DNA of 35,215 nt from Verrucomicrobiota bacterium (GTDB lineage Bacteria > Verrucomicrobiota > Verrucomicrobiia > Limisphaerales > SIBE01), in assembly GCA_027623095.1 (NCBI GenBank), contig JAQBVM010000028.1, positions 1 through 35,215 of the forward strand. The letters run 5' to 3'. A program made the position numbers and the translations under genes. The notes below the pieces were generated by a model. That model worked only from the letters and a program-made list of their open reading frames with translations, did no database searches and had not been told where the DNA came from. Positions 27,514 to 31,138 of the stretch are shown here, piece after piece; position 1 is the first letter of the stretch, and each line of letters opens with the position of its first letter.

Positions 27514-28917
27514 TTACGTCTGTGAAGGATTCAAGTAATAGTTATCCACCCTGGCAGCAACATCCCTGTAGCCAATATCGACTTCGTAAATCTGTTTGAA
27601 TTGCTCCATGGCGTCTTCCGCTTTGCCAAGTTTTTCGAGGACGCATCCAAGCCGGTAAGTCAGTTCCATTTTCTCGTCGTCCGCCTCGGGTTTCTCCTTA
27701 AGCGCGTTTTGAAAGGTGCGGGCGGCCAAATCGTCCATGCCTCGCCTGGAGAAGCACTGACCTAGGTGGCACATGGCCGCGATCCGCCGGTGCGGGTTGT
27801 TTTGCGCTTTTTGAAACTCTTGGATGGCCTCCGTGGTCTTCCCAAGTTCGAAGTAAAGTTTTCCAAGGTCGAACCGAATCTGGAGATCGGTTGGGTATTT
27901 TTCCGCGAGCTGCTTGATCTCTGTCAGTCGATATGTGTCTCGATCGGTAATGATTCGTTCTCGTTTCGAAGCGCAGTCGGGGTCGCTTTGATTAAGTTCG
28001 GAGAGAGCCAATTCGAACCGCTTCAGGGTTATCTCGATGATCCTTTGGTCCAGCGAGGGGTCGGTTCCACCTTCTCTGGCCTCGAGCTTCCCATAGTATT
28101 CCAGAGCTTGGTCAAAATCCTTTTTGTTTGCGTAAATCTCCGCGATCAATCGATAGGGTTTCAGATTGTCCGGTTCCCGTTGAATCTGCGCCTCGTATTC
28201 GGCGACTAATTTGTCGGCAACCTCTACGGTCTTGACCTGCCGGTTTTCTTGCTCCAGCAAGAGGGACTCGTCTTCATTTTTCAATATGTCGCGAAACGAT
28301 CCCTTTCCTTCGGTCAATTTTTTGTATCCCCCCTCGCTCAATGTTCGCTGGGCTGAAAAATTCTTTAGCGCCTGAGCGATCTCCATATCGTTCGGATTGG
28401 CCTCCTGGAGCTTGATGAAAATCGACACTGCTTTCGCTTCTTGGCCGGTTCGGGTCAGCGCATTGCCCAATTTTAGCGCGATGTCCTTGTCCTTCGGAGA
28501 TTGCCGCAATGCAATTTCTAGGGAAAGCACGGCGGTTTGAGGGAAATCCAATTCCAAGGCGGCCTCAGCCAGAATCTTATGGGCAGAAACGTTGTTCGGA
28601 TCTGTGTTCAGAATCTGCTCGGCCACAGCGATCGCCTCAATTGGGTTGTTTCGAAGCGCCAGTTGCGCTTTCGCTATCAAGGGCGAGTTGCTTGCTGTTC
28701 CCAAGACTTTCTTGAAGAAGCTGGTGCCTGATCCAACTTTTTCCCTTTGGGTGGCTCGGAGCGACACCCTGCATTTGTAGAAAGCGGGTTCGTTCTGAAG
28801 CACTTGGTAAAAAAGCGCGATTGCATAGTCGAGGTTCTTCCGTTGTAGCGCGGAGGTTCCTTTTTCGAACAGTTCCCGGTCTTTTTGGGGGATTTCACTG
28901 ATGCTTTTCTCAGGCAT
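27514..28917 (-). CDS. Tetratricopeptide repeat protein
   Basis: A 467-residue soluble protein with about ten TPR-like helix pairs from the N-terminus on (DRELFEKGTSALQRKNLDYAI...) to the end (AMEQFKQIYEVDIGYRDVAARVDNY). Clear repeats include DNLKPYRLIAEIYANKKDFDQALEYY, DLQIRFDLGKLYFELGKTTEAI and RIAAMCHLGQCFSRRGMDDLA. A basic, less regular stretch at about 55-75 (REKVGSGTSFFKKVLG) separates the first repeat from the rest. There is no signal peptide or membrane segment, so it should be a cytoplasmic scaffold. Function unknown. It is transcribed away from ilvB, and its 3' end faces rfaE2 with 58 bases between. Confidence 0.88.
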   Translation of the reverse strand: MPEKSISEIPQKDRELFEKGTSALQRKNLDYAIALFYQVLQNEPAFYKCRVSLRATQREKVGSGTSFFKKVLGTASNSPLIAKAQLALRNNPIEAIAVAEQILNTDPNNVSAHKILAEAALELDFPQTAVLSLEIALRQSPKDKDIALKLGNALTRTGQEAKAVSIFIKLQEANPNDMEIAQALKNFSAQRTLSEGGYKKLTEGKGSFRDILKNEDESLLLEQENRQVKTVEVADKLVAEYEAQIQREPDNLKPYRLIAEIYANKKDFDQALEYYGKLEAREGGTDPSLDQRIIEITLKRFELALSELNQSDPDCASKRERIITDRDTYRLTEIKQLAEKYPTDLQIRFDLGKLYFELGKTTEAIQEFQKAQNNPHRRIAAMCHLGQCFSRRGMDDLAARTFQNALKEKPEADDEKMELTYRLGCVLEKLGKAEDAMEQFKQIYEVDIGYRDVAARVDNYYLNPSQT

Positions 28918-29068: not shown

Positions 29069-29097
29069 TTGACCCTGCGGATAGGGGTCGTTAATTT
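29069..29097 (+). promoter_or_regulatory. Candidate sigma-70-type promoter of the ilvB leader
   Basis: TTGACC at 29069-29074 and TAATTT at 29092-29097 with 17 bases between. The expected start of transcription, about 29103-29105, coincides with the ATG of the leader ORF, so the leader mRNA could be leaderless. The -10 match is only 3 of 6. Confidence 0.4.
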
Positions 29098-29103
29098 CGC
29101 GGC

Positions 29104-29178
29104 ATGGCTTTAGTTGTTGGCAAAGTAGTACCGCTGGGTGTCGTGATTGACGGCGCCGTGGAAACTTGCCGAGTTTGA
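29104..29178 (+). CDS. Valine-rich leader peptide of the ilvB attenuator
   Basis: A 24-codon ORF, starting [14 protein letters not shown] and ending TCRV before a TGA at 29176-29178. Eight of 24 codons are Val, in pairs at codons 4-5, 8-9 and 13-14, and two Leu and one Ile are also present, so 11 of 24 are branched-chain residues. It precedes an acetolactate synthase gene and a hairpin terminator. This is what the IvbL/IlvL-type leaders of enterobacterial ilv operons look like, although the sequence is unrelated. Ribosome stalling at Val codons would report on Val-tRNA charging. No Shine-Dalgarno sequence is visible; a leaderless start at the candidate promoter would explain that. It is too short for gene finders and its translation is inferred. 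Confidence 0.7.
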
Positions 29179-29204
29179 AAATAACCTTAACAAGTACCCA
29201 CGGC
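29155..29204 (+). promoter_or_regulatory. Antiterminator pairing of the ilvB attenuator
   Basis: GCCGTGG (29155-29161, within the leader ORF) is perfectly complementary to CCACGGC (29198-29204), the upstream arm of the terminator. Forming this 7-bp pairing excludes the terminator. A ribosome reaching the leader stop codon would cover 29155-29161; one stalled at the Val codons before 29146 would leave it free. Confidence 0.65.
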
Positions 29205-29229
29205 TGCCGAAGACGGTCGTGGGTTTTTT
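29196..29229 (+). terminator. Intrinsic terminator (attenuator) upstream of ilvB
   Basis: ACCCACG (29196-29202) pairs with CGTGGGT (29218-29224); the inner bases extend the stem with G-U pairs and one mismatch to a GAA loop. Six T (29224-29229) follow. It lies 38 bases before the ilvB start codon and 18 bases after the leader peptide stop codon. Confidence 0.75.
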
Positions 29230-29266: not shown

Positions 29267-31138
29267 ATGAGCAAGACCAGAGAGACGTCGAAACGGAAGG
29301 GAACTTCGCAATTGAATCGACCCGAATTGGGCCGTCCAAGCCTCGGAAGCGAGATCTTGGTGGAAGGTTTAGAGAGGGAAGGTGTGGACACGATTTTCGC
29401 CTATCCCGGCGGAGCCAGCATGGAATTGCACCAAGCCCTGACAAAATCCGCGAAAATACGCACGATTCTTCCGCGCCATGAGCAGGGCGGCGCTTTTGCG
29501 GCTGAAGGCTACGCGCGTGCGACCGGTCGTGCCGGAGTCTGCATGGCCACAAGCGGTCCGGGGGCAACCAATCTTGTTACGGCGATCGCGGATGCTTATA
29601 TGGATTCTGTTCCCTTGGTTGCCGTTACGGGACAAGTGCCTCAACACATGATCGGAAAGGGAGGGTTTCAGGAGACTGACTTTTTTGGAATGACGCTTCC
29701 GGTGGTCAAGCATAATTATTTGGTCACAAGCATTCACGAGCTTCCGCGAATCGTAAAGGAGGCGTTTCACATTGCGCAAAGCGGACGCCCTGGACCGGTG
29801 GTGATCGATTTCCCAAAGAACATTCAACAACAGACATCCCAGCCTGTTTGGCCGAAAGAGATCAGCATTCGCGGATACCCGGCGCCGAAGCAGGCGGATG
29901 ATTTGGTTTTGAATGAAATTATCGGATTAATTGAGAAGTCCGAGCGCCCGGTGCTGTACGTTGGCGGCGGGATAATTTCCGGCGATGCAAGCGCTGAGTT
30001 GCGCAAGTTCGCGCGAAGCACAAAAATTCCAGTGACAACGACTATCATGGGTTGCGGCGCGTTTCCAGAAACGGATACGCTTTCGTTGCGCTGGCTAGGC
30101 ATGCATGGAACCGCCTTCGCCAATTGGGCGGTGAGCGGTGAGTTTAAGCGTGGAAGCAATCCCTCTGATACGCCTGAGAAAATCGCCGACGGGGCGGATC
30201 TATTGCTCGCTCTGGGAGTCCGGTTCGATGATCGTGTAACCGGCAAGGTGGACAAATTCTGCGAGACCGGGACGATTGTGCATATTGATATCGACGCTTC
30301 TGAGCACAACAAGAACAGGCGGGTTCAGTTGCCGGTGGAAAGCGATGTGAAGTTTGCCCTGCAGCGGTTGAACGAGATGATCAGCCGGCGGCCCATCCGA
30401 AAACAATTCACCGCTTGGCACAGTCAAATCGCTGTTTGGAAAAAGAAGGCGCCGCTGAGATTTCAGGTTACTGACGAGGTGCTTCGTTCGCAGCATATGC
30501 GCGATCACATGGATGGACACTCGGGGGAAGTAATCCTGCCGCAGATGGCGATTCAGATGCTGTACGAGCTGACCGATGGTGACGCGATTGTGACAACAGG
30601 GGTTGGCCAGCATCAAATGTGGGCGGGCCAGTATTACCAATACAAGGAGCCGCGGCAGTTTCTAACCAGCGCGGGGCTCGGAGCAATGGGGTTTGGCTAT
30701 CCGGCGGCTCTCGGCGCCAAGGTTGCCAGGCCTGACAAACAGGTGATTGATATCGATGGCGATGGATCGTTCTTGATGAATATCCAGGAATTGGCGACGG
30801 CTCACATTGAAAATATTCCCGCCAAAGCGCTGGTCTTGAATAATCAGCATCTCGGAATGGTCGTTCAGTGGGAAGATCGTTTTTATGCGGGGAATCGAGG
30901 TCACACCTATCTCGGCGATCCTCTCAATATGAAGAATATTTACCCGGATTTTGTAGGGATCTCCAATAGCTTTAACATTCCGTCGGAACGTGTGATGTTT
31001 AAGCGGGATCTTCGAGCCGCTCTAAAGCGAATGCTGGATTCGAAGGAGCCATATGTCTTGGATGTCATCACTCCTTATACGGAGCACGTGATTCCGTTTA
31101 TTCCGGCCGGCCGAACGGTCGCCGAAATGATTTACTAA
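29267..31138 (+). CDS. ilvB: Acetolactate synthase, large (catalytic) subunit
   Basis: A 623-residue thiamine-diphosphate enzyme that makes acetolactate from pyruvate (and acetohydroxybutyrate), the first common step of valine, leucine and isoleucine synthesis. Marks are [16 protein letters not shown], the catalytic Glu E72 in [41 protein letters not shown], the FAD-binding middle domain, LGMHGT and the ThDP motif [19 protein letters not shown]...NNQHLGMV. The ATG at 29267 is used; upstream in-frame sequence contains the attenuator and looks non-coding. No regulatory small subunit (ilvN) is next to it; the following gene, 12 bases on, is a secreted protein of unrelated type. Regulation is probably by the leader-peptide attenuator. 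Confidence 0.95.

Follow-up and report, generated by a model that had tools for sequence, protein, structure and literature searches.

What controls ilvB, the gene of the acetolactate synthase large subunit, and what is the role of the short valine-codon-rich ORF and the hairpin in front of it? We addressed this in a 35,215-nucleotide stretch of DNA from a bacterium of the order Limisphaerales in the phylum Verrucomicrobiota (hereafter the window, meaning the whole stretch analysed) and in its relatives. We propose that ilvB is under the control of a ribosome-mediated transcription attenuator that would sense charged tRNA-Val, a reading to which we assign a probability of about 0.92. Its basis is the anatomy of the sequence, its conservation, its pairing potential and the folding of the RNA left exposed by the ribosome, from which we infer the start site, the stalling, the read-through and the response to valine. 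The features concerned are the following.

29069 to 29074, forward strand: predicted -35 hexamer of the leader promoter, TTGACC; TTGAC stands at a fixed distance from the leader start in relatives
29092 to 29097, forward strand: predicted -10 hexamer, TAATTT, after a 17-nt spacer and ending 6 nt before the leader ATG
29104 to 29178, forward strand: Val-rich leader peptide ORF, 24 codons on translation, at or next to the predicted 5' end of the transcript
29117 to 29123, forward strand: segment 1, TTGGCAA, which pairs with 29166-29172 (TTGCCGA) in the minimum free energy fold of the free leader
29155 to 29168, forward strand: segment 2, putative antiterminator 5' strand, GCCGTGG plus ACTTG, within the final codons of the leader
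29191 to 29204, forward strand: segment 3, putative antiterminator 3' strand, CAAGT plus CCACGGC, overlapping the 5' arm of the terminator
29196 to 29224, forward strand: intrinsic terminator hairpin (3:4) by fold score, 11 bp with a 7-nt loop; 99.2% of cells are paired in 95 relatives
29224 to 29229, forward strand: T6 tract, the first T of which closes the terminator stem
29267 to 31138, forward strand: ilvB, acetolactate synthase large subunit (TIGR00118, E 6.9e-200)

The identity of ilvB, which starts at 29267, is given by a TIGR00118 score of 665 bits against a cut-off of 538. It is followed by a gene for a 3-keto-disaccharide hydrolase-like protein (PF06439; 31151-32218) and not by ilvN, so that ilvB appears separate from the other ilv genes. 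ilvB was detected in 56 of 58 relatives, and 80 further loci were added, giving 116 upstream regions after deduplication. A promoter, a Val-rich leader, a conserved segment at the 3' end of the leader and a terminator were found in 105 of these 116 dereplicated Limisphaerales regions, a set that still includes a few non-orthologous or truncated loci. An alignment of upstream regions, as the earlier note had proposed, revealed that the Val codons, the terminator and the alternative pairing are conserved. Neither a lack of the ORF or terminator among relatives nor a transcript starting downstream of the element, which that note had named as grounds against its idea, was encountered at the sequence level, the start site being a predicted one.

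The hairpin that had been noticed 18 bases past the leader stop codon, with its six T residues, scores as a good intrinsic terminator. Its arms (29196-29206 with 29214-29224) give a fold z-score of -3.16, equalled by none of 200 shuffles. As a matter of general knowledge, the position of the ribosome could also govern the access of Rho, and attenuation might act through Rho or through translation instead of an intrinsic terminator; we hold this to be very improbable, as almost all relatives have an intrinsic terminator with a T tract and the hairpin comes well before the point where ilvB starts.

GCCGTGG (29155-29161), which precedes the terminator, matches the reverse complement of CCACGGC (29198-29204) at every base. 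This perfect 7-bp pairing, described in the earlier note, is the core of a longer helix: beyond a 2x2 internal loop, ACTTG (29164-29168) pairs with CAAGT (29191-29195), yielding an antiterminator of 12 bp in the window (duplex -22.0 kcal/mol) and of up to 17 positions in relatives. In the consensus of 95 sequences, GCCG..GG..CTTGTCG is found near the 3' end of the leader and GACAAGAACCCACGGC immediately 5' of the terminator loop. In an alignment-free strand swap test of the 2:3 pair, strands from the same genome paired at a mean of -23.7 kcal/mol versus -21.6 for swapped ones (0 of 2000 permutations as good; both the swap and the shuffle controls are inflated by kinship among the sequences), and the control pair 1:3 had no effect (1722 of 2000). 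Antiterminator cells were paired in 75% of cases, against 32-49% in slid versions of the helix, and those with both sides changed numbered 44 versus 21 +/- 3.8 after shuffling, with such changes seen in 10 of 17 pairs; pair 31/66, for instance, alternates between C-G (55), U-A (13) and U-G (4). An ilvB tree with 83 tips gave 8 double changes that keep a pair, against 2-3 in slid versions, but also 129 pair-breaking changes, partly due to alignment error. Judged from these comparisons, the putative antiterminator helix is selected but loose, with many mismatches tolerated.

A ppGpp riboswitch is in use at some ilvB genes (PMC10272879), and the core of the element is conserved in sequence, so one might think of a ligand-binding riboswitch of that class, or of a T-box, next to which the ORF would be incidental. 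A search of Rfam with the window and 19 relatives, with the ilv and leu leader families and the T-box included, gave no relevant match at gathering scores, nor any with E values up to 5. Moreover, the three pairing segments account for the conserved positions, and the frame and Val codons of the leader are kept among relatives while the remainder of its sequence varies, all of which makes a riboswitch or T-box highly unlikely.

The leader itself was as described in the earlier note, with 8 Val codons in three adjacent pairs and two singles, together with 2 Leu and 1 Ile, that is 11 branched-chain residues in 24 codons. Across the 105 relatives the leader has a mean length of about 25 codons, at least 5 Val are present in 94, and runs of 3-5 Val are common, often VVVV. 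Val makes up 26.3% of the leader residues, versus 6.8% and 4.1% in the other two frames of the same DNA. The codons used in the leader body differ (GTC 227, GTA 203, GTT 96, GTG 63), so it is the amino acid that is conserved and not one repeat; GTA represents 34% of them, against 2% in ilvB (13 of 635) and 8.5% in the genes of the window. A blind scanner recovered a leader and a terminator at 108 of the 116 ilvB loci, Val being the most frequent of the tested residues in 103; in the same genomes, hisG gave none in 20 and trpE one in 23, with no Trp leader. The confinement of the Val enrichment to one frame and these negative controls exclude a chance origin of the Val-rich leader. That the hairpin, a good intrinsic terminator by itself, merely ends an upstream transcript beside a chance Val-rich ORF is practically negligible as an explanation, since the upstream neighbour (27514-28917) lies on the opposite strand, leaving no upstream operon or transcript to end here, and since 105 relatives have kept the promoter, the Val leader and segment 2 together.

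A stock promoter scan of the window reported no promoter upstream of the leader, and it was only through its conservation in the 105 relatives that the one given above was recognised, with the layout TTGACC, about 17 nt and TAnnnT. TTGAC was a selection criterion among relatives, but the C on either side of it was not, and both are conserved; of the -10 positions outside the selection, 23, 24 and 28 are T in 77, A in 76 and T in 72 of the 105 regions, respectively, at 17-nt spacing. The start codon lies 34-42 nt beyond the -35 element in the 105 relatives, and 6-13 nt after the end of the -10 element (6 nt in the window). With a typical start site, such a gap would leave about 0-6 nt of 5' UTR. 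This layout predicts a transcript start at, or a few bases from, the leader ATG, and hence a leader mRNA that would be leaderless or nearly so. We dropped an argument for leaderless translation from the missing Shine-Dalgarno sequence, as ilvB is without one too (present in 6 of 105 leaders and 1 of 50 ilvB).

The locus displays the anatomy of the trp/ilv attenuator class: a conserved promoter-like sequence, with a predicted start site, upstream of the leader; a leader ORF rich in codons for the product; a terminator between leader and ilvB; and an antiterminator that excludes the terminator and has one strand in the leader ORF. In the attenuation that we propose, transcription would begin at or next to the leader ATG. 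With ample Val-tRNA, the ribosome would reach the stop codon and cover segment 2, the 3:4 terminator would form and ilvB would be left untranscribed. With scarce Val-tRNA, it would stall in the Val codons 5' of segment 2, so that the 2:3 antiterminator could form ahead of the synthesis of segment 4 and let RNA polymerase continue into ilvB. Were the leader untranslated, segment 1 could hold segment 2, and the terminator would form. Folding of the RNA left exposed by a Val-stalled ribosome, with assumed mask edges, gave the antiterminator in 105 of 105 sequences as long as segment 4 was absent, and in 84 of 105 once it was included; with the ribosome at the stop codon, under equally assumed edges, the terminator was obtained in 105 of 105. 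The earlier note placed the alternative segment inside the leader ORF, between the Val codons and the stop; segment 2 indeed occupies the last codons. The longest complementary 1:2 run in relatives has a mean of 6.56, weakly above the controls (6.24 when swapped, with a maximum of 6.50, and 5.73 for codon-shuffled leaders). On modest support in relatives, segment 1 could sequester the 5' strand of the antiterminator, which would give the classic 1:2 / 2:3 / 3:4 logic.

A leader and a terminator are by themselves no proof of attenuation, as is clear from Streptomyces coelicolor, where the possible regulatory codons in front of ilvB could be replaced with no effect (PMC1262725). Here, the attenuation reading is supported by the conserved Val leader, the marked use of the rare codon GTA, the promoter, the terminator and the better pairing of strands from their own genome than of swapped ones, and also by an analogous leader before leuA with codons for Leu, the product of its own pathway. 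The earlier proposal of control of ilvB through Val codons thus gains comparative support (105 of 116 regions, swap test and covariation counts), but its extension to the whole phylum was too wide. A covariance model of the element has matches in most sampled genomes of the order. Outside the order but within the class, none of 22 ilvB upstream regions passed the scan for a Val leader and terminator, though L170, a further genome from another order of the class, has them; in other classes 2 of 18 regions passed (L293 and L294). The predicted element is order-wide, with scattered cases elsewhere. A further three of the 18 have Val/Leu-rich ORFs before ilvB, with no terminator recognised (L279, L281 and L290, the last in G352). 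Four weak matches of the model (L158, L159, L168 and L172) were rejected, having no clear leader and resembling plain terminators.

Similar leaders precede other genes of the pathway. In most genomes leuA, which belongs to either of two families, has a leader rich in Leu behind a promoter of the same layout (the scanner recovered 51 of 55, with Leu commonest in 49); these leaders (L181-L240) contain about 29% Leu, and an alternative terminator lies before leuA. In the genome of the window, the leuA leader (L221, G000:C9) reads ...VINLLSLDTLLLGRVAVGL up to its stop codon. The 2:3 swap test was weak for leuA (87 of 2000) and the 1:3 control deviated too (6 of 2000), so that we claim no covariation there. 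ilvN-ilvC forms an operon separate from ilvB, most sampled copies of which (L349-L370) carry a short leader rich in Val together with a GCGGCC/GGTCGC hairpin and a terminator; the leader in the genome of the window (L359, G000:C438) reads MQILVIALQDCVVID before its stop, and MQIPAEAIRLVVVVVVD, also given to its stop, is an example of these leaders. When mutual exclusion was sought in the ilvNC leader, the upstream hairpin was found merely to abut the terminator. Rfam gave no match at the leuA and ilvN loci.

Val/Ile-rich leaders and terminators stand before a gene for a class I SAM-dependent methyltransferase in other orders of the class (L164, L166, L167, L169, L171, L241-L245 and L250). Named by eye, an AsnC/Lrp-type regulator and an aminotransferase lie downstream in L175 and L178, with a homoserine dehydrogenase gene further downstream in L175; in L173, a weak match of the model, a Val/Ala-rich leader-like ORF and a terminator precede a D-Ala-D-Ala carboxypeptidase-like ORF. 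We lean towards the view that attenuation in Limisphaerales governs a branched-chain amino acid regulon with no fewer than three sequence-distinct leader RNAs (Val for ilvB and ilvNC, Leu for leuA), with leaderless or near-leaderless ORFs and a shared promoter layout, and that related Val/Ile leaders control the SAM-dependent methyltransferase in other orders.

In enterobacterial ilvBN and ilvGMEDA, the structural gene is preceded by a leader peptide that contains control codons, by hairpins that exclude one another and by a terminator. The logic proposed for Limisphaerales ilvB is the same as in these attenuators and in that of trp, in another phylum, with another sequence and with a predicted near-leaderless start. 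The ilvBNC operon of Corynebacterium glutamicum (ilvB-II motif) likewise has a short leader rich in branched-chain residues and an anti-antiterminator / antiterminator / terminator logic (PMC10272879, PMC11857589). Its leader ORF starts 1 nt from the transcript start and is leaderless (PMC11857589), so that the near-leaderless start predicted here has been observed there; however, its control codons are mixed Ile/Leu/Val and not Val-dominated, the RNA sequences differ, and Limisphaerales ilvB is separate from the ilvN-ilvC operon, which has its own leader. Similar uORFs precede ilvB in Actinobacteria (PMC10272879, PMC1262725, PMC13236596). In Mycobacterium tuberculosis ilvB1NC, a uORF with branched-chain codons ('LVVI') and an antiterminator hidden by the ribosome at the stop codon (PMC13236596) resemble what we propose, but this is a single operon of different sequence. 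The ilvB-OMG and Leptospira ilvB motifs also comprise uORFs rich in such codons before ilvB, the latter always with at least 3 consecutive Val codons (PMC10272879), although no Rfam family matches the window or the 19 relatives at gathering score. A literature search on attenuation or uORFs in Verrucomicrobia or Pedosphaera retrieved no paper on this topic. This is a known type of mechanism in a lineage for which no earlier report was found, and neither Rfam nor, as far as searched, the literature has a record of this sequence family or of such an element in this lineage.

The finding provides the largely uncultured order Limisphaerales with a predicted regulatory circuit for branched-chain amino acids, and offers about 100 natural variants with which to study attenuation through near-leaderless leader ORFs outside Actinobacteria. 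It also brings to light genes about 25 codons long, which annotation as a rule overlooks. If the wider regulon is true, valine sensing would have an unexpected target in the methyltransferase.
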